Assembly (NCBI RefSeq): GCF_003605405.2
Contig: NZ_QYTW02000032.1
Span: forward strand, 9,072-63,739
Source of the DNA: Siminovitchia terrae
GTDB taxonomy: Bacteria > Bacillota > Bacilli > Bacillales > Bacillaceae_C
DNA length: 54,668 nt
Reading direction: 5' to 3'
In this document: one piece after another, positions 13,996-30,312 of the stretch
How the letters are laid out: every line of letters begins with the position of its first letter
How positions within the stretch are numbered: the stretch's first letter is position 1
Notes under the pieces: model-generated
Told to the model about the DNA's origin: nothing
Seen by the model: the letters and a program-made list of their open reading frames with translations, nothing else
Database searches by the model: none
Made by a program: the position numbers and the translations under genes

Positions 13996-14212
13996 TCCAG
14001 CTACGACGTACAGGACGTACTAGTGCAAGCGAAGCGACAGGACGTCGCGTTCTGAGCCTGCCGACGTACAGGACGTACTAGTGCCGCCGGCGCCTAGCCC
14101 CGCAAGAGCCCCGCAAGGATCAAGTCGCTTCCCTGTGGTAGCTGAAGAACTGCCTCCTCGGGAATCATCTTGTTTGCCAGCGCTGAGCCAGGCGCTTGCG
14201 TTTTTCTTAATA
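13996..14212 (+). repeat. second repeat family, copy C, with internal 22-bp direct repeat
   Basis: Begins CCAGCTACGACGTACAGG and ends CAGGCGCTTGCGTTTTTCTTA. A 22-bp unit beginning GACGTACAGG occurs identically at 14005-14026 and 14063-14084. The block is visibly richer in G and C than its surroundings. It shares GAAGAACTGCCTCCTCG with copy A. The 539 bases between the etfB remnant and the ROK gene hold copies B and C and nothing else I recognise. Confidence 0.6.
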
Positions 14213-16323: not shown

Positions 16324-16854
16324 ATGCTATTGGATATATTTCTCACATTCTTGTTGATCGGCTTTGTATCATTTGGCGGCGGCTATGCCATCATCCCGAT
16401 GATTGAATTAGAAGTCACCCGCCACGGCTGGATGACATCCCAGGAGTTGATCGATGTTATCGCAGTCGCCGGAATGTCACCTGGCCCGATTGCCACGAAC
16501 ACAGCCGTCTTTATTGGCTTCCATACAGCCGGATTGCCTGGAGCGATTACGGCGGCTGTTGCCATTACGATTCCTTCGGTTTTAATTGTATTAATCATAG
16601 CGGCCTTCTTTTACAAGTTAAATGAAATTACTGTGGTCCAATCTGCCTTTTATGGACTGCGTCCCGTCGTTACCGCGCTGATTATATTCGCGGCATACTC
16701 TTTCGCCTTGTCAAACGGCCTTTTTTCCATCTCGAAGGAAACTTTGATTGGAGGTCTCCTGTTTTTATTCTGTTTATTTGCCCTGATGAAATTTAAATGG
16801 CACCCTGCACTGATCATTCTCATAGCCGGTTTGGCAGGTATTGTCCTATATTGA
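16324..16854 (+). CDS. chrA: chromate transporter ChrA family, second half-size subunit
   Basis: The start at 16324 follows GAAGGAAGG, which overlaps the stop of the first subunit, giving 176 residues. It has FVSFGGGYAIIPMIELEV near the N-terminus and AVAGMSPGPIATNTAVFIGF as the conserved CHR loop, followed by hydrophobic helices to the end. Five-base spacing to the upstream gene implies coupled synthesis of the two half-transporters. An alternative upstream TTG at 16303 would add seven residues but has no better ribosome site. Confidence 0.87.
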   Translation: MLLDIFLTFLLIGFVSFGGGYAIIPMIELEVTRHGWMTSQELIDVIAVAGMSPGPIATNTAVFIGFHTAGLPGAITAAVAITIPSVLIVLIIAAFFYKLNEITVVQSAFYGLRPVVTALIIFAAYSFALSNGLFSISKETLIGGLLFLFCLFALMKFKWHPALIILIAGLAGIVLY

Positions 16855-16912
16855 ATCATCATTTTTCGTATTGCACCTTCCAGTATGCTGGGCTAATCTA
16901 GTATTATGGTCT

Positions 16913-18979
16913 ATGGTAATAAGTTGCAATATTTATAATGAATCCACTTTATTTAGAAGGGAATGGGGGGAAATTAGAAAAAAACAATTCAAAATCCCTT
17001 ATTTGCTTATGCTTTTTTTCTTTATTCTTGGAACTGTAGCACTAAATCCTTCTACAGTATTTGCAGGGAAAAAAACGTATAAGGTTGCTGGAGAATGGGC
17101 GCTCCCTCCTTTTTCCTATACGAAAGAAGATGGGATATTGGCTGGTATCAGCATTGATCTAATGGAAAAAATTTCGAAGGAAAATGAGTTCAACCTTGAA
17201 TATGTCTCGATGAGTATAGAAGAAGCGGAAAAATCACTTAAGGAAGGAAAAATTGATGCAATAGCTGGGGTTTCATATAATGCAGAAAAAGATAGTTGGT
17301 TTGATTTTTCCGACCCGTATTTTATGATGTCATACTCGTTGATAATTCCAAATGAGAAAAAAAAAAGCATCAAAAAAATTTCTGATATACGTGATCTCCA
17401 TATAGTGTTAGAGAATAATTCACCAGTCATTGGCACCTTGCAAAACATGAGAAATTCCAATTTGACAATAGTTACAAATGAATATGCCGGTCTCCTGATT
17501 TTGGTTAATGAAAAAGCAGATGTTTTTATAGGAAATAAATGGACTGCCAGTTTTTATCTGAAACATATTGAACAGGAGAATAATTTTGTCATTCTTGATG
17601 AAGTTATTGAACCCGCCGATTATTCAATAGCTGTAAAAAAAGGGAATGAAGAACTGCTTCGACAAATAAATCAATCTATTACCAACCTAAAAGCAAAAGG
17701 TGAATTAAATCCGTTAATTGACGAATGGATAAAACCAAAGCCTGAAGCGGAAATAACCAGGTTAAAAAATTTCATTTTTCTACTTTCATTAATATTATCA
17801 ATCGTTGCCCTAGTCCTTCTTATTATCTACATATGGAATCAGAGACTGAAAAAAGCTGTCAGTAAACAGACGTATGCACTAAGGGAGTTAAATAAGAATC
17901 TGAAAAATCAACAGCAGGAAATTGCTGATAGTAATGTTCTTAAAGATCAGATATTAAATAATATTGACACCGGCATTGTTACATTCGGACTTGATTTTAC
18001 AATTAAAAGTTTTAATACAAGAGCCTTGGACATACTTGGTCAGGTTGATGATGAATTGAACGAGATTAAAAATTTCACTTCACTTTTACAGAGGTTTTTC
18101 CGGAAATGTGATGACCAGGATACTCCGGAGGAAGATGCAGCCGATACGATTGAAGTAGAAATGGATGATGGACAAAGAAAGATCATATACTTCCGCATGC
18201 TTAGAATGTATGATTCTCACAAGGAACTGACTGGCTATATACTTGCATTAAATGATGAAACGGAAAAGAAGAAGCTTCAGCAAAAACTAATCACACAAGA
18301 GAAACTACATGCACTTGGACAATTGGTTGCTGGTGTTGCACATGAGATCCGCAATCCGCTAACAGCCATAAAAACGTTCATTGACATGCTCCCCAAGAAG
18401 TATGATCGTCCTGAATTTAGGAATCTGATTATTGAGCATTTGCCTGCGGAAGTGAGCAGGCTGAATTTGATAGTTACTGATCTCATTGAATATTCACGTC
18501 CGCGTCCGCCGAACAAACAACGTTACACGGCACCTGAACTTTCCTCATTGTTAGTGTTCCTTAAGGTTACAATTGATAAAAAACAAATACTTCTTGAAAA
18601 ATCCATAGACCAAGACCTTGTATTTTATATTGATCCTCAACAAATTCGCCAGGTGATTTTTAACTTAGTGTTAAATGCAATCGACGCAGTGGAAGATTCA
18701 TCAGAAAAAAAAATTCGGATTTTGATGGAAAAAGAGAATGGCAACTACGGAAGGATTATAATTGCGGACACAGGAAAAGGGATAGAAAAGGGTGAGTTAA
18801 CCCGTATTTTCGAACCCTTTTATACAAGTAAGGAAAAAGGAGGAGGTTTAGGCCTTACCTTATCCTACAATCTCATAAAAGAAAATAACGGGGATATTCA
18901 TGTAGAAAGCCAACCTAATCAGGGAACGGTATTCACTATCATATTACCATTGTACAAACCGGAGGAGATAAAAAAGTGA
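16913..18979 (+). CDS. sensor histidine kinase with extracytoplasmic SBP (bac_3) domain
   Basis: Order of parts: signal peptide ending near VFAG, a periplasmic-binding-protein type 3 domain (from KTYKVAGEWALPPFSY to DEWIKPKPEAE), one membrane helix (FIFLLSLILSIVALVLL), a PAS-like region, a HisKA helix with phospho-acceptor His477 (numbered from 16913) in AHEIRNPLTAI, and an HATPase with N-box NLVLNAIDAV, DTGKGI and GGGLGL. It should sense a small solute outside the cell and phosphorylate the response regulator whose gene overlaps by four bases. The true start is unclear: ATG at 16913 lacks a ribosome site, and homologous-looking sequence begins at an ATT (16973). Confidence 0.87.
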   Translation: MVISCNIYNESTLFRREWGEIRKKQFKIPYLLMLFFFILGTVALNPSTVFAGKKTYKVAGEWALPPFSYTKEDGILAGISIDLMEKISKENEFNLEYVSMSIEEAEKSLKEGKIDAIAGVSYNAEKDSWFDFSDPYFMMSYSLIIPNEKKKSIKKISDIRDLHIVLENNSPVIGTLQNMRNSNLTIVTNEYAGLLILVNEKADVFIGNKWTASFYLKHIEQENNFVILDEVIEPADYSIAVKKGNEELLRQINQSITNLKAKGELNPLIDEWIKPKPEAEITRLKNFIFLLSLILSIVALVLLIIYIWNQRLKKAVSKQTYALRELNKNLKNQQQEIADSNVLKDQILNNIDTGIVTFGLDFTIKSFNTRALDILGQVDDELNEIKNFTSLLQRFFRKCDDQDTPEEDAADTIEVEMDDGQRKIIYFRMLRMYDSHKELTGYILALNDETEKKKLQQKLITQEKLHALGQLVAGVAHEIRNPLTAIKTFIDMLPKKYDRPEFRNLIIEHLPAEVSRLNLIVTDLIEYSRPRPPNKQRYTAPELSSLLVFLKVTIDKKQILLEKSIDQDLVFYIDPQQIRQVIFNLVLNAIDAVEDSSEKKIRILMEKENGNYGRIIIADTGKGIEKGELTRIFEPFYTSKEKGGGLGLTLSYNLIKENNGDIHVESQPNQGTVFTIILPLYKPEEIKK

Positions 18980-20367
18980 AACCGCATGTTCTGGTCATAG
19001 ATGATGAGCAAGCCATTTGCGCATCCTTAACTTTTGCGCTTGAGGATGATTATTGCATTACAACCACCACTGATCCTAAGAAGGGTCTTCAATTGATTAA
19101 GAAAAAGCCTGTGGATATCGTCTTGCTGGATATGCGCATTGGGAGTGTAAATGGATTAGACGTTTTACTGAAAATAAAAAAAGAAACGCCATCACCCACT
19201 GTCATTATGATGACTGCGTATGCTTCTATAGAATCATCTATCGAAGCGATTAAGAGGGGGGCGTATTATTATATTGAAAAGCCTATCAATATGGAAGAGC
19301 TTCATCTTCTATTGATGAGAGCTGTTGAATTCACTCAAATGACCTCCAAGTTGGAGACGCTTCATGAAGAATTGGAGCAGAGGATAGGCTATGAGAATTT
19401 TCTTGGCAAGAGCAAACCGATGAATCATGTGTTCTCCATGATTAACCGTATAAAGAATATAGATTCAAATGTACTTATATTAGGTGAAAGTGGAACAGGG
19501 AAAGAACTGGTTGCTAGAAGTATTCATAACACTGGAAAAAGAAAAAATGCTCCTCTTGAAATCGTAAACTGTGCAGCAATACCGGAAACGTTACTTGAAT
19601 CGGAGCTGTTTGGATACGAAAAAGGGGCTTTTACCGGGGCCACAGAGAGGAAGGAAGGAAAATGGGTCGCCGCTAATGGTGGTACACTGTTTTTGGATGA
19701 AGTCAGTGAAATGCCACTTTCAATCCAAGCTAAACTGCTGCGTGTTTTACAGGAGCGTGAGGTTACGCCACTGGGATCGAATACAAAGATTTCACTTGAT
19801 GTACGAATCGTATGTGCTACGAATAAGAAACTTGAACAAATGGTCAAAGAAGGGAAATTCAGGGAAGATTTATATTTCAGGCTAAATGTAATACCTATTT
19901 TAATGCCGGCTCTTAGGGAAAGAAAAGAAGATTTGCCGCTATTGATCAACCATTTTATCGAAAAATATTGTCAGGAAATGAACCAGGATAAGAAATCGTT
20001 ATCTGCATCAGCCCGCCGGATTCTTCAAGAGTATAGTTACCCGGGAAATGTGCGTGAACTTGAGAACATAATAGAATATTCAGTTGCACTTTCTACAGGC
20101 GATGTGATTATGGATACAGATTTACCAATGAACGTACAGGAACAAAAACCGGCTTTGTTCTCAACTGAATTAGATGACAATGGAAATCTCCTTAAAATAC
20201 CTATTGGAGTTCCTATGTCGGAAGTTGAAAAACAAGTCATTGCTGCAACGCTTAATAAATTTGACTGGCATCGCAAAAAAACAGCCCATGCACTTAAGAT
20301 TTCTGAGCGTACTTTAAGAGATAAAATCAAATTGTATGGGATAGAAAAAAATAAAGCTGAAGTATAG
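18976..20367 (+). CDS. NtrC-type sigma-54-dependent response regulator
   Basis: A GTG start at 18976 overlaps the kinase stop (GTGA) and follows GGAGGAGAT. The 463-residue protein has a receiver domain with phospho-acceptor Asp52 in VLLDMRIG, an AAA+ domain with Walker A GESGTGKE at 170-177, the sigma-54-contacting GAFTGA at 217-222, and a Fis-type helix-turn-helix at the C-terminus (KKTAHALKISERTLRDKIK). It should activate the -24/-12 promoter at 20543-20558, directly downstream, and so control the TAXI/ABC operon in response to the kinase. Confidence 0.93.
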   Translation: MKPHVLVIDDEQAICASLTFALEDDYCITTTTDPKKGLQLIKKKPVDIVLLDMRIGSVNGLDVLLKIKKETPSPTVIMMTAYASIESSIEAIKRGAYYYIEKPINMEELHLLLMRAVEFTQMTSKLETLHEELEQRIGYENFLGKSKPMNHVFSMINRIKNIDSNVLILGESGTGKELVARSIHNTGKRKNAPLEIVNCAAIPETLLESELFGYEKGAFTGATERKEGKWVAANGGTLFLDEVSEMPLSIQAKLLRVLQEREVTPLGSNTKISLDVRIVCATNKKLEQMVKEGKFREDLYFRLNVIPILMPALRERKEDLPLLINHFIEKYCQEMNQDKKSLSASARRILQEYSYPGNVRELENIIEYSVALSTGDVIMDTDLPMNVQEQKPALFSTELDDNGNLLKIPIGVPMSEVEKQVIAATLNKFDWHRKKTAHALKISERTLRDKIKLYGIEKNKAEV

Positions 20368-20449
20368 GTAAAACAAATCTAGAGATGGAATTATGTACAG
20401 CGTGAAAAAATCGTCTAAAAGAAAGGGCTTGCTCATACGAAAAAACAAT

Positions 20450-20493
20450 AAAACGGCAAAATCCGCCGATAGAACGGCAGATTTTGCCGTTTT
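20450..20493 (+). terminator. strong hairpin terminator after the response regulator gene
   Basis: AAAACGGCAAAATC and GATTTTGCCGTTTT form a long stem with an inner GCCG/CGGC extension; A and T runs flank both sides. It isolates the two-component genes from the sigma-54-driven operon downstream. Confidence 0.8.
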
Positions 20494-20519
20494 ATTTATC
20501 GGATAAACTCGAAAAACAC

Positions 20520-20533
20520 TGTAAGTGCTTACA
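20520..20533 (+). promoter_or_regulatory. candidate response-regulator binding palindrome
   Basis: TGTAAG-TG-CTTACA is a perfect inverted repeat ten bases upstream of the -24 element. It could be the site of the NtrC-type regulator, although enhancer sites usually lie further away. Confidence 0.4.
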
Positions 20534-20542
20534 TTTGGTTAT

Positions 20543-20558
20543 TGGCATAGAAGTTGCA
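20543..20558 (+). promoter_or_regulatory. sigma-54 (-24/-12) promoter of the TAXI/ABC operon
   Basis: TGGCAT-AGAAG-TTGCA matches the RpoN consensus with correct GG-to-GC spacing. The next gene starts at 20588, 30 bases on, and a sigma-54 activator gene lies just upstream. Confidence 0.85.
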
Positions 20559-20587
20559 ATATATATTTTCAAGGAAGGAGATTTACA

Positions 20588-21595
20588 ATGGAAAAACGAC
20601 GACTCTTCACAGGAATCCTGTTTATATTCCTGATATTAGCAGGATGCACAGCTGTGAATGGGAAGCAGGAAATTCCTTCTCCTGCTGTAGCACATCCCCA
20701 ATCGGAACATAAATCTAAACAGGATATGGACGTACTAATCATAGCTACAGGAGATATGTCAGGTGTCTATTTTTCGCTTGGACAGGCAATCGCTGCCATG
20801 TATGAAAAATACGATGGTGTTGCTTGGGCCGCACAAGTTACAAATGCTTCTTTCCAAAATGTAGATCTGGTAAGCAAGAAAAAGGCAGATCTTGGCTTTG
20901 CTACTGTAGATGTGTTCAGTGAAATGGCAGAAGATGATTCTATTCCCAATATTAGGGTGCTTACCGAACTTTATTCTAATTATATTCAAATAGTTACCCT
21001 AGAACACAGCGGTATCAGTTCATTTAAAGATCTTGAAGGCAAGCGGATCGGTGTAGGACCGGATAAGAGCGGAACAAAATTGGCTGCAGAGCGGATCCTT
21101 TCAGCATTTGGCTTGGACGACAATAAAGTTGAGAAACATTTCCTCACATTTACGCAATCGGCTGATGCACTAAGGAATGGCACAATTGATGCTGCTTTTT
21201 TTTCCTCTGGCTTACCAAATCCGGAGATTGCATCCCTAGCTTCACAGATGCCAATAACACTTATACCTGTTCCTGAGGAAATCGTGTCGAAACTTAATAA
21301 AGAGCATGGTAATTATTCAGAAAATGTTATAGAGCCGGACATATATGAAGGCGTGAATGAAGGTATACAAACGGTCTCTGTAAAAAATGTTCTATTGACA
21401 CATAAAGATTTTCCGGAAAAAGAAGCGTATCAACTTGTAAATACCTTGTATAAGCATTTGTCTGAACTTCAAAAAATACACCCGGCTGCCCAAGATATTA
21501 TTGGGACAGAAGCGAAAATGGAAATACCCATCGACTTTCATCCAGGAGCAAAAAAGTTTTTTCAGAAAAGACAAATTCCTAACAATGAAAATTAA
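20588..21595 (+). CDS. TAXI-family TRAP solute-binding lipoprotein (normal domain order)
   Basis: The start at 20588 follows AAGGAGATTTACA. The 335-residue lipoprotein has signal peptide and lipobox LAGC with Cys20, then the TAXI fold in normal order: IIATGDMSGVYFSLGQ near 51, SFKDLEGKRIGVGPDKSGT near 145-163, and HPGAKKFF near the end. It is first in a sigma-54-driven operon with an ABC importer and has no TRAP permease beside it. It may present a ligand to the sensor kinase encoded upstream, or serve a permease elsewhere; both are inference. Family assignment is secure. Confidence 0.88.
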   Translation: MEKRRLFTGILFIFLILAGCTAVNGKQEIPSPAVAHPQSEHKSKQDMDVLIIATGDMSGVYFSLGQAIAAMYEKYDGVAWAAQVTNASFQNVDLVSKKKADLGFATVDVFSEMAEDDSIPNIRVLTELYSNYIQIVTLEHSGISSFKDLEGKRIGVGPDKSGTKLAAERILSAFGLDDNKVEKHFLTFTQSADALRNGTIDAAFFSSGLPNPEIASLASQMPITLIPVPEEIVSKLNKEHGNYSENVIEPDIYEGVNEGIQTVSVKNVLLTHKDFPEKEAYQLVNTLYKHLSELQKIHPAAQDIIGTEAKMEIPIDFHPGAKKFFQKRQIPNNEN

Positions 21596-26587: not shown

Positions 26588-26598
26588 CGATTACTTTT

Positions 26599-26789
26599 AA
26601 CTTCATTTAGCAGAAGTCTCCCACTTCTGTAAGTGGTGAGATGAATGCATATTGGCATTCCATTCAGTGGAGGTTCAAACCCCGGCTGAATAAAGTTAAA
26701 GCCTCCGGCTGATGCCACAGATTTTCAGAGGAATTTATCGAGCGGAGCTTGATAAAATCTGGGCGCAAATACGCCAAGGCGCATTTGAT
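26599..26789 (+). repeat. 190-bp structured repeat, copy 5
   Basis: Preceded by TTTTAA. Its ATCGAGC-GGA-GCTTGAT hairpin has a C-to-T change that keeps a G-U pair in plus-strand RNA. It stands in the noncoding gap between the SDR and permuted TAXI genes. The rest of this gap (26790-27086) holds only a TCTGGC/GCCAGA hairpin near 26812-26843 and the promoter below. Confidence 0.9.
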
Positions 26790-27086: not shown

Positions 27087-28115
27087 ATGTTTACTAAAAA
27101 AAGAATTTCGTTTATTGCAGTACTATTCATGATATCCGCATTGCTTGCAGCGTGCAGCAGTGGATCAAGCGGAGGTGGAGGCGGAGGAAGCAAAAAGAAA
27201 GTAGCAATCGGGCCGCCTGCCAGTGAAACGAATTCTGTTTCAAAACTGATTATGGAAGCTTACGGTATTGAAGAAGGAGATTATGAGGCCTATCAGGAAG
27301 CCTTTGGAGATGCGGCTGATGGAGTCCAGGATGGGAATATTGAAGTATCAATAGGAATCCTTGGTTTACCAGCCGGAAGCATCGAAAGCCTGCAAGCTTC
27401 AGCCGGCGATGTTAAAATGCTTGGGCTTTCTGATGAGGCAATCAAGCATATTGAGGAGAAAAGCGGATACAAGCGACACACTATTCCGAAAGACACGTAT
27501 GATTTTCTTGATGCAGATGTCGAGACAGTAACTGCTTATGCTGTTTTAATGGGGAGCACGGATACGATTGATGAAGAACTTGGATACGAGCTTGCCAAAA
27601 TCATGGTGGAAAATGCGAGTGAAAATACGCATGATCAGGCAAAACAGATGACGCTTGAAAATGCATTGAATGGGGCGGAAGGGCTTCCTATCCATCCAGG
27701 TGCTAAGAAATATTATGAAGAACAAGGATTGACAATTGATAATCCTGTGGCTGAACTTAAGGCTGATAAGAAAGATAGAAAGAGTGAGTTGATTCTCGGT
27801 ACGGGAAGCCAGGGTGGAACTTATTATCCGCTTGGGGGAGAAATGGCTAATATTTGGAATAAACATATCGATGGTGTTAACGTAACGAACACAGAAACAG
27901 GTGCTTCCATTGAAAACCTTGCGAGTATCCGTGATGGCAACATGGATTTAGGCATGACTGTCCACGTACCGGCACTGTCTGCTATTGAAGGTAAGGGGGA
28001 CTTTGAAGGGGCAAAAGTAGAGAATGCTGCTTTCATCGGTCATATTTATCCTGAAGTCGTCCAGATTGTCACGCGTGAAAAAACAGGAATCAAGAGCTTG
28101 GAGGATCTAAAATAA
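27087..28115 (+). CDS. circularly permuted TAXI-family TRAP solute-binding lipoprotein
   Basis: The start at 27087 follows GAAAGGGGAAAATGG. The 342-residue lipoprotein has lipobox LAAC (Cys23) and a Gly/Ser linker to residue 35. What follows is the TAXI fold in swapped order: residues 36-215 run from KKKVAIGPPASET to HPGAKKYYEEQGL, normally the C-terminal part; a charged linker 216-233 follows; residues 234-342 run from ELILGTGSQGGTYYPLGG to GIKSLEDLK, normally the N-terminal part. The protein ends exactly at the hinge where its first part begins, so nothing is missing or doubled. It precedes the fused TRAP permease and should bind its substrate. A rearranged pseudogene is less likely given the intact frame. 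Confidence 0.85.
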   Translation: MFTKKRISFIAVLFMISALLAACSSGSSGGGGGGSKKKVAIGPPASETNSVSKLIMEAYGIEEGDYEAYQEAFGDAADGVQDGNIEVSIGILGLPAGSIESLQASAGDVKMLGLSDEAIKHIEEKSGYKRHTIPKDTYDFLDADVETVTAYAVLMGSTDTIDEELGYELAKIMVENASENTHDQAKQMTLENALNGAEGLPIHPGAKKYYEEQGLTIDNPVAELKADKKDRKSELILGTGSQGGTYYPLGGEMANIWNKHIDGVNVTNTETGASIENLASIRDGNMDLGMTVHVPALSAIEGKGDFEGAKVENAAFIGHIYPEVVQIVTREKTGIKSLEDLK

Positions 28116-28248: not shown

Positions 28249-28285
28249 AAAAGGGATGATTGTACATACCGTCATCCCTTTTTTC
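28249..28285 (+). terminator. hairpin between TAXI lipoprotein and TRAP permease genes
   Basis: AAAAGGGATGA and TCATCCCTTTTTT with a 12-base loop. It lies between two genes of one importer and probably lowers permease expression relative to the binding protein. Confidence 0.7.
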
Positions 28286-28353: not shown

Positions 28354-30312
28354 ATGAAAGAGAAAGAACATCTGGATGCCCAGGAAATACTTGAGAAATA
28401 TGATAGGGAGAATCAGTTCAGGGCTTCAATTGGTAAATGGGCATGGATTGTTACGCTTCTAGGAGTTTCTTTGACGGTGTTCCATCTATACACTGGTTAT
28501 TTTGGAACACTGCCTTCCCAAAAACAGGGTGCGATCCATTTGGGCACAGCTCTTGGAATTATCTATTTACTTTTTCCTGCTAAAAAAGGAATGCACAAGG
28601 TACAAAAGAAAGTTCCTTGGTATGATGTCGTGTTGGCGTTCACTGCCATGTACGTCACTTACCATAAAATCTTCTTCTTTGACTCAATTTTAAAAAGCAG
28701 GATCTCTGGATATAGTACGATTGATATTATTATATCCATTATAGGGATTCTCCTCGTTTTGGAAGCGACTCGCAGAACGGTAGGGGTACCTATTGTTGTT
28801 GTGGCGAGCATCACTATTTTATACGCCATTTTCGGAAAGCACATTCCGACAACCATCTTGTCGCATCCCGGATTCTCGGTGGACAGGATTGCCCCAAATC
28901 TTTGGTATCAGGAGAGTGGTGTTTTTGGAACACCTGTCCAAATCTCGGCCAAATTTATTTTTCTCTTTCTGTTTTTTGGTGTTATGCTTGTCCACACGAA
29001 AATCGGCCAGTTTTTCAATGATTTGGCATTTTCGCTGACGGGACGTTTTACGGGAGGGACAGCAAAGACGGCTGTTGTTGCCAGTGCTCTCCAAGGTATG
29101 GTTTCCGGAAGTTCTGTCGGGAATACGGTAGCTTCTGGATCTTTTACAATCCCCATGATGAAAAAATCAGGGTTTACCCCCGAGTTTGCAGGGGCAACAG
29201 AGGCTTCAGCATCAACGGGCGGACAGATTATGCCGCCAATTATGGGAGCTGCCGCCTTTATCATGATGGAATACCTTGGTGTACCCTATTCCACGATCAT
29301 GCTTGCTGCTATGATTCCGGCTGTTCTGTACTTTACAGGCATTTTTATTGGAACCCATTTCGAAGCGAAAAGATTAAAGATTTTTGGTTTGCCGAAATCA
29401 CAGCTCCCAGTATTCAAAGATTTAATGATAAAAAACGGTTTTATGCTTTTACCGGTTGTTGTCATGATCGGTACGATCCTCTCGGGATTTACCCCACAAA
29501 GGGCAGCGCTTTTAGGGATTGGAGCAGTTTTTATCGTAAGCTTGGTCAGGAAAGATACAAGGCTTTCCATTCGGAAAATCTTTGAAGTGCTTGAACAGGG
29601 TGCCAGGGTAGCGCTGCCGGTTATTGCAGCTGTAGCAACTGCAGGAATCATTGCCGGGGTTGTCAGTATGACGGGACTTGGCGCCAAATTTGCTTCGGGA
29701 ATCATCGCTCTATCAAGCGGGCATTTAATTTTGGCTCTTTTCTTTACAATGATTGCTTGCATCATCCTTGGAATGGGGCTTCCAACAACGGCGAATTATG
29801 TTGTTACGGCAACGGTCGCGGCACCAGCTCTTATCAATGAGTTCGGTTTGGCGCCGATTGCGGTCCACATGTTTGTATTCTACTTCGGAATTGTAGCGGA
29901 CATCACTCCTCCAGTCTGCTTGGCTGCTTATGCGGGTGCGGGCATTGCGAGGGCCAACCCATTCAAAACAGGTGTCATTGCGGTAAAGCTTGCCATAGCA
30001 GCTTTTATCGTTCCGTACATTTTTATTTACAATCCAATTTTGGTTTTGGTGGATGTAACCCCTTTGGCACTTATATTTGCCATCGTTACTTCGCTGATCG
30101 GCATGGCGGGCATCAGCAGTGCAGTCGTCGGATTTTACGCTCGGAATTCATTTATATGGGAGAGACTTGCCCTTTTTGCTGGCGGACTCATGATGATCTT
30201 CCCAGAAACAATCAGCGACTTTGTTGGCGCAGCTATCCTATTGGGTATTTGGTTTATCCAAAAACAACGTAAGGATGACAGCGGGCAGATTAAACCACAA
30301 ATTTCAATGTGA
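28354..30312 (+). CDS. TRAP transporter fused permease (4TM + 12TM, TAXI-associated)
   Basis: The 652-residue membrane protein fuses the small and large TRAP subunits, the form that works with TAXI binding proteins. An N-terminal four-helix region (to about residue 130) is followed by the large subunit with GMVSGSSVGNTVASGSFTIPMMKKSGF, the EASASTGGQIMPPIMGAAAFIM motif, and IILGMGLPTTANYVVTATVAAPAL in the second repeat. It imports substrate with a sodium or proton gradient. ATG at 28354 follows GGAGTGAGGTG. Its partner is the permuted lipoprotein gene just upstream, across a repeat and a hairpin. Confidence 0.93.
   Translation: MKEKEHLDAQEILEKYDRENQFRASIGKWAWIVTLLGVSLTVFHLYTGYFGTLPSQKQGAIHLGTALGIIYLLFPAKKGMHKVQKKVPWYDVVLAFTAMYVTYHKIFFFDSILKSRISGYSTIDIIISIIGILLVLEATRRTVGVPIVVVASITILYAIFGKHIPTTILSHPGFSVDRIAPNLWYQESGVFGTPVQISAKFIFLFLFFGVMLVHTKIGQFFNDLAFSLTGRFTGGTAKTAVVASALQGMVSGSSVGNTVASGSFTIPMMKKSGFTPEFAGATEASASTGGQIMPPIMGAAAFIMMEYLGVPYSTIMLAAMIPAVLYFTGIFIGTHFEAKRLKIFGLPKSQLPVFKDLMIKNGFMLLPVVVMIGTILSGFTPQRAALLGIGAVFIVSLVRKDTRLSIRKIFEVLEQGARVALPVIAAVATAGIIAGVVSMTGLGAKFASGIIALSSGHLILALFFTMIACIILGMGLPTTANYVVTATVAAPALINEFGLAPIAVHMFVFYFGIVADITPPVCLAAYAGAGIARANPFKTGVIAVKLAIAAFIVPYIFIYNPILVLVDVTPLALIFAIVTSLIGMAGISSAVVGFYARNSFIWERLALFAGGLMMIFPETISDFVGAAILLGIWFIQKQRKDDSGQIKPQISM

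Follow-up and report, generated by a model that had tools for sequence, protein, structure and literature searches.

The gene at 27087-28115 of the window (the whole stretch of 54,668 nucleotides that was analysed) almost certainly encodes a TAXI protein that is circularly permuted by nature and conserved in that form: the usual C-terminal part of the chain comes first and the usual N-terminal part last. The best explanation overall, which we hold with high confidence, is that the product is a lipid-anchored binding protein of a TAXI-TRAP system whose gene has been naturally circularly permuted. Sequence, phylogeny, conservation across assemblies, a confident AlphaFold2 model and gene order all support a permuted TAXI gene in front of a fused TRAP permease. 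The features concerned are the following:

27087-28115, + strand: permuted TAXI open reading frame, ATG at 27087 and TAA at 28115, 342 aa (translation)
27087..27152, + strand: lipoprotein signal peptide, aa 1-22, ...ISALLAAC (translation; lipobox pattern)
27153..27191, + strand: lipid-anchor Cys23 and Gly/Ser tether, aa 23-35 (translation)
27192..27731, + strand: canonical TAXI C-terminal segment, now first, aa 36-215, comprising most of lobe 2, hinge strand 2 and the remainder of lobe 1 (profile and PDB-sequence matches, rotation)
27519..27557, + strand: hinge strand 2, aa 145-157 (DSSP on the AlphaFold2 model), taken to correspond to VcGluP 255-267 of PMC11574862
27732..27785, + strand: new linker between the old C- and N-termini, aa 216-233 (HMM gap, pLDDT, rotation optimum)
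27786..28112, + strand: canonical TAXI N-terminal segment, now last, aa 234-342, comprising the start of lobe 1, hinge strand 1 and the first helix of lobe 2 and ending at the stop (profile and PDB matches, rotation)
28026..28076, + strand: hinge strand 1, aa 314-330 (DSSP on the AlphaFold2 model), taken to correspond to VcGluP 116-131 of the same source
28249..28282, + strand: inverted repeat with a T run behind it, in the gap that separates the binding-protein gene from the permease gene (16-nt arms, 88% complementary)
28354..30312, + strand: fused TRAP permease, 652 aa (TIGR02123 TRAP_fused, 4.2e-218; DctM PF06808)

Translation and profiles agree on the architecture that the preliminary description had read from the letters alone, namely a lipoprotein signal, a Gly/Ser linker, the C part, a linker at 216-233 and the N part. 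The gene had also been placed in front of a TRAP permease, and the TIGR02123 match at 28354-30312 bears this out. The inverted repeat and T run that lie between the two genes are a possible attenuator or terminator, which could reduce permease expression relative to the binding protein; the consensus scan listing does not contain them.

Order of the two segments

Pfam NMT1_3 (PF16868; 2e-63, 215 bits, cut-off 27) and NCBIfam TRAP_TAXI (TIGR02122; 4.2e-67, 226 bits, cut-off 84.35) match both lobes of the protein significantly, each in two stretches. The better stretch, residues 36/37-214, corresponds to the C-terminal end of the profiles (111-289 of 289 and 142-320 of 320, respectively), and the second, covering profile positions 1-115, was found downstream in the same genome region by a genome profile search. 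Since the two stretches jointly still pass the family cut-off, profile annotation can hide a permutation of a TAXI protein. All seven PDB TAXI sequences found with the family profile gave a two-stretch match, as did six of the seven with the single query, 9ibp being matched in one stretch. Alignments of four PDB chains place query residues 235-342 on the N-terminal part of the chain and 37-215 on the C-terminal part.

Rotation in silico points the same way. Residues 36-342 were cut every 6 residues, the ends were rejoined, and a profile built from 20 TAXI proteins of normal order was used to score the products. The top single match rises from 231.2 bits for the best native segment to 404.9 bits over the full length, with the optimum for a cut at residues 216-234, i.e., at the linker, and a peak of the scan at this place excludes chance. 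Both segments are complete, each is present once, the old termini are joined and the new termini lie elsewhere, which is the arrangement of a circular permutation. That neither part is duplicated had been claimed before and extends to the relatives, as none of 147 TAXI ORFs carries one part twice above 25 bits. Because the N-terminal segment does not precede the C-terminal one, we file the protein as a permuted variant and not as a canonical member of the family. A lipobox (...LAAC) at Cys23, recognized by a simple pattern, marks it as an exported protein, and it is encoded with a TRAP membrane component. The second TAXI protein of the window, at 20588-21595, has the normal order by the Pfam and NCBIfam profiles, as the preliminary description had stated.

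Occurrence in other genomes

A scan of one genome per species, using patterns derived from the query, gave 73 related loci. Among the TAXI ORFs on the first 78 loci, a set in which the normal-order genes of the own genome are doubled (L002/L003, L004/L005) and the window gene (L001) is repeated as L006, 61 of 81 are permuted and 20 of 81 have the normal order; because patterns taken from the query, together with relatives, served to find the loci, these counts favour close relatives. Homologues with the same order, for which a search had been proposed, are thus present in many genera of two phyla, the own gene included in the 61. The linker between the HMM-matched parts measures 16-19 aa in 61/61, the proteins stop 0-2 residues past the N part, and the lipobox pattern is matched in every one of them. 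A profile search of 40 genomes returned the swapped match in seven, which are all six genomes of the genus (the own genome and five others) and one other of the family.

An assembly or sequencing join error could have swapped the halves of an ordinary TAXI gene, and the source genome is indeed a draft of 68 contigs. Against such an error stand the same order and the same short range of linker lengths in 61 ORFs of many genera and two phyla, a copy that is 100% identical (L006), the swapped match in six of six genus genomes, and a permuted gene (L068, NZ_CP048812.1) on a record titled complete genome. Since the permuted order prevails among the TAXI ORFs, recurs in separate assemblies and is found on a complete chromosome, we reject an artefact of assembly, whose probability we consider negligible. 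It is also extremely unlikely that the gene is a decaying or non-functional product of rearrangement. Only the unusual order, and a copy (L017) without a neighbouring permease, would suggest decay; dN/dS is 0.015-0.066 in 14 of 14 hand-chosen pairs, by which a pseudogene is rejected, and the open frames, the lipobox in all 61 ORFs and the permease partner in 60 of the 61 speak for a gene in use.

Limited genome searches revealed no independent permutation elsewhere. They covered four overlapping genome sets with at most five candidates scored per genome, and permutants cut elsewhere would escape them. Among 398 Bacilli genomes (E ≤ 1e-30), 88 had any match and eight a full-length collinear one, own genome included. 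At E ≤ 1e-50, the one full-length collinear match among 369 genomes from the class to which L044's genome belongs is that of the centre genome, L044's own; the 398 from its phylum (E ≤ 1e-35) gave two, the centre included. In the own phylum, 398 genomes searched at E ≤ 1e-45 yielded one permuted match, from the own genome, and one in normal order. A plasmid search matched 337 records, all below 60% identity.

Origin and spread of the permutation

For the trees, both parts were restored to canonical order, and duplicates among the rotated sequences were dropped, which reduced 108 ORFs to 101 rows and 147 to 132. The IQ-TREE analysis of 101 rows groups the 60 distinct permuted sequences into one clade (100/97) among 41 normal-order ones. 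They remain one clade (SH-aLRT 99) in the tree of 132 rows (66 permuted, 66 normal), where the nearest normal-order rows are L117-L120, L125 and L146 (97). Both support values indicate descent from normal-order proteins of the same family, of which the unpermuted relatives are up to 60.6% identical. The root is the midpoint, and for both trees the program warned of long branches meeting among outgroup rows. Given the tree so rooted and the generality of the normal order in the family, we take normal order to be ancestral; by these trees, the permutation appears to have arisen once from normal-order TAXI proteins. The normal-order TAXI protein of the window is distant from the permuted clade, its copy L004 falling in another clade.

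The gene might alternatively be a chimera of two TAXI paralogues, with the C part from one and the N part from the other, and not a permutation of one ancestor. There are several TAXI genes per genome, and in L007, L008 and L010 the permuted pair is preceded, just upstream, by a TAXI gene of normal order and a TRAP permease that goes with it (43% identical to the permease of the window). The N-part tree, in addition, supports the permuted clade weakly (0.50). Separate trees of the two parts, which cover the first sample, nevertheless put the permuted group beside nearly the same normal-order rows, 10 for the N part and nine for the C part, L072 differing. The chimera is disfavoured on these grounds, and we judge it quite unlikely.

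The textbook way to a circular permutation is a tandem duplication after which the outer halves are lost. It is likely to have been the route taken by the single ancestral gene here, as the preliminary description had supposed. No N-C-N-C duplication intermediate occurs among the 147 TAXI ORFs (same-gene repeats included). We considered, and rejected, a remnant of the lost C-half of the second copy 3′ of the stop: a 12-nt exact repeat is all that links 27202 and 28180, and, being a short two-copy match, it is treated as chance. Elsewhere in its own genome, the 3′ intergenic stretch has no more than three matches, all short.

Within the permuted clade, Bacillaceae sequences enclose a smaller clade (100/100) of 24 proteins, of which 23 come from Halomonadaceae and the remaining one from a Pseudomonas record. 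Such nesting suggests horizontal transfer, and the permuted gene was probably passed later from Bacillaceae to Halomonadaceae. The permuted TAXI proteins, then, make up an entire conserved clade, to which the trees assign a single origin and which has members in Bacillota and Pseudomonadota.

Cut site and predicted structure

PMC11574862 gives residues 116-131 and 255-267 as the hinge strands of VcGluP, 29-115 and 268-328 as its domain 1 and 132-254 as its domain 2; the ends that correspond to the old N- and C-termini both lie on lobe 1 of this solved relative. With VcGluP numbering taken as chain position + 28, read by hand from the alignments, the break maps between residues 144 and 146, in domain 2. 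The preliminary description had put the break after the hinge, and it does lie past the first hinge strand; it sits, however, about 12 residues beyond that strand, inside lobe 2, rather than at the hinge proper. A break at this place in lobe 2, just past hinge strand 1, means that both hinge strands survive and that the anchor shifts from lobe 1 to lobe 2.

Structure prediction, which had been suggested as a check, gave a confident AlphaFold2 model (pLDDT 88.3, pTM 0.80) from an input alignment of 27 homologues that are 63-97% identical to the query; the spatial pairing of the two parts rests on this confidence and on secondary structure. Residues 145-157 and 314-330 form long strands in the model, in the places expected for the two antiparallel hinge strands that connect the two alpha/beta lobes of a TAXI protein, and the linker-bearing blocks of 10 residues within 211-240 reach pLDDT 91-97. 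A model of a normal-order relative, L066 (pLDDT 84.1, pTM 0.76), has 21 secondary-structure elements in common with it, in rotated order, according to lists compared by hand. The same L066 model served as the control in Foldseek, a sequential aligner that is blind to permutation. Ranks 1-7 of its search are seven TAXI chains, aligned over 299-306 columns with a TM by target of 0.77-0.91, whereas the best 50 matches listed for the permuted model include as TAXI proteins only two VCA0144 chains (197-207 columns), its full-length matches among these 50 being other binding proteins or fold relatives, mostly at 6-13 Å rmsd. The contrast between the two predicted structures is what a permutation would produce.

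Permease partner and proposed mechanism

A TRAP permease lies 4-367 bp downstream in 60/61 permuted loci, in a count restricted to BLAST matches that cover at least 40% of the query. It also follows 15/15 hand-chosen normal-order rows, with 38-59% identity to the permease of the window. At the remaining permuted locus, L017 (5580-8570), the gene is followed by a GGDEF-EAL protein and no permease is adjacent; the same genome has a second permuted gene, L142, that adjoins one. The permuted protein very probably works as the binding component of the TRAP importer beside it. The neighbourhood could also be read as that of a sensor or receptor which happens to lie near the permease and is no component of the transporter, as gene cluster 7 lies upstream in six loci and its one scanned representative is a chemotaxis receptor. 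The regular succession of permuted gene and fused permease argues against this, and we regard it as very unlikely.

As a transporter component, the protein is best explained in the following way. By the sequence, the old termini are joined by the linker of 16-19 residues, and both lobes and both hinge strands are complete; by the trees, an ancestral normal-order TAXI gene, whose kin likewise precede TRAP permeases from one lineage with that of the permuted genes, was permuted once. The permuted protein would still close on its ligand like a Venus flytrap and would hand it to the adjacent fused TRAP permease. The main mechanical effect would be that the anchor pulls lobe 2 via an always-short tether, not lobe 1 via a usually long one.

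In 61/61 permuted ORFs, 4-16 aa (median 6) separate the Cys from the first matched residue; among normal-order ORFs, this spacing is 7-61 aa (median 25), measured in the 45 of 47 with a pattern-found lipobox. Five of the six nearest normal-order relatives have a tether of 25-37 aa, and that of the sixth, L146, which the pattern missed, is about 8 by eye; three further normal-order proteins (L069, L071, L103) have tethers of 7-9 aa. The short tether is universal in the permuted clade, yet it also occurs outside it. Because the permutation happened once, it amounts to one event and not 61. The N-terminus leads into domain 1 in VcGluP and into domain 2 in the permuted protein.

We hypothesize, tentatively, that the permutation is adaptive: an anchor on lobe 2 with a leash of ~6 residues might keep the binding protein near the membrane in a fixed orientation, and the protein would act as a semi-permanent lid on its own permease rather than as a freely moving carrier. 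L146 and the three other normal-order relatives with short tethers make this less likely, and we find it rather doubtful. The permuted clade and its unpermuted relatives offer a direct test of whether the position or length of the tether affects the docking of TRAP binding proteins.

Candidate ligand

The glutamate contacts of VcGluP, taken from PMC11574862, were mapped by hand through sequence alignments. Those kept are S40, Y45, Y46, S75, E125 and G203 (S241, Y246, Y247, S274, E323 and G93 in the permuted protein), and those changed are V44, Q93, H123, G156, D157, Y200 and M201 (T245, V292, Y321, E47, T48, G90 and I91). Most nearer normal-order relatives share the compared residues with the permuted protein, except at G156, which is Gly in the relatives. 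It is reasonable to assume, from this sharing, that the ligand class probably survived the permutation.

The Halomonadaceae clade is more suggestive as to the ligand. Genes for HglS, a 2-oxoadipate dioxygenase/decarboxylase (13 loci), and/or a 2-aminoadipate transaminase (13 loci) lie in the fetched flank of 19 of its 24 loci and of 0/36 other clustered loci. For every neighbour cluster (HglS, transaminase, LysR, chemotaxis receptor), the name was taken from a single member, and L001 was left out of the clustering; the HglS and transaminase representatives score 739 and 736 bits against cut-offs of 550 and 650. Glutamate, the known TAXI ligand, is shorter than 2-aminoadipate by one carbon. This kinship and the aminoadipate-type neighbourhoods make 2-aminoadipate the leading candidate in the Halomonadaceae clade, where we consider a ligand of this type plausible, at slightly less than an even chance; for the window protein, we consider it less probable than that. 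We found no literature on 2-aminoadipate with a TRAP transporter, and the neighbourhood supplies a candidate that can be tested.

None of the eight neighbours scanned in the window is an aminoadipate-type gene. Downstream genes of the window encode a sigma-54-type regulator, a 5-oxoprolinase/urea amidolyase family protein and two proteins like caprolactamase subunits, which score below the cut-offs, and they give no firm indication of a ligand. More generally, the candidate ligand is probably an acidic amino acid, e.g., 2-aminoadipate or a close relative of glutamate.

Relation to known binding proteins

The permuted protein resembles canonical TAXI proteins (VcGluP, 8S4J; Thermus thermophilus, 1US4/8U79; VCA0144, 9IBP) in the strong match of both segments, in its secondary-structure elements, in being a lipoprotein and in the adjacent fused TRAP permease. 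It differs from them by the swapped order, the 16-19 aa linker and an anchor that holds lobe 2 by a short tether. The TAXI protein at 20588-21595 shares its family and genome but has the normal order and is distant in the tree.

The nearest precedent is TpMglB-2 (Tp0684), which PMC4990184 describes as a ‘Type Ic’ circularly permuted sugar-binding lipoprotein. An N-terminal piece of its N lobe has moved to the C-terminus, ligand binding is retained, and the authors suggest a link between permutation and tethering. Both are natural permuted and tethered solute-binding proteins; TpMglB-2 belongs to Type I/Cluster B, works with an ABC transporter, is broken in the N lobe and has an extra (fourth) hinge crossing, whereas the permuted TAXI protein has a TRAP partner, is broken in lobe 2 and keeps both hinge strands. 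The latter, a TAXI protein with a TRAP permease, does not belong to Type Ic/Cluster Bc, which has the Type I fold and ABC sugar transporters; VcGluP is placed in Cluster F in PMC11574862. If the adaptive reading of the short tether were true, tethered binding proteins would have undergone permutation on at least two independent occasions, with one mechanical reason behind both.

Another TAXI lipoprotein of unusual architecture is BP0403 (TAXI-GltS), in which, according to PMC12344293, extra N-terminal and helical domains precede a TAXI domain of standard SBP architecture and the partner is GltS, not TRAP. Permutation is not mentioned in the portions of PMC11574862 and PMC12344293 that were at hand. 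The preliminary description knew of no permuted TAXI protein, and we found neither one nor a permuted TRAP protein in the literature searched, outside whose scope lay most subscription papers and all bioRxiv preprints. TpMglB-2 is the sole natural permuted binding protein identified in that literature and belongs to a different fold class and transporter type. The permuted TAXI protein accordingly offers a naturally permuted binding-protein scaffold.

Other features of the window

A repeat of ~195 bp has eight copies in the window, at 26595-26789 and at about 2595, 6075, 9028, 15467, 36726, 44211 and 51989, which are 86-100% identical to the copy at 26595. It occurs at no fewer than 41 places of its own genome with 93-100% identity (40 of 604 first-look candidates were scored), and more diverged matches exist in L008 (74%) and L155 (71%). 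No Rfam family reaches threshold on the repeat, which looks like a high-copy non-autonomous element. The Rfam scan gave nothing at the permuted TAXI locus; at 14007-14072 (- strand) it matched Bacillaceae-1 RNA (RF01690) with 36.2 bits, the gathering score being 35.

The region at 16841-21595 holds, by eye, a sensor kinase with a sensor region of the solute-binding type and an NtrC-like regulator directly before the TAXI gene at 20588-21595. This gene has no TRAP permease beside it and is followed, also by eye, by an apparent ABC importer; its product may serve the kinase as a sensor.
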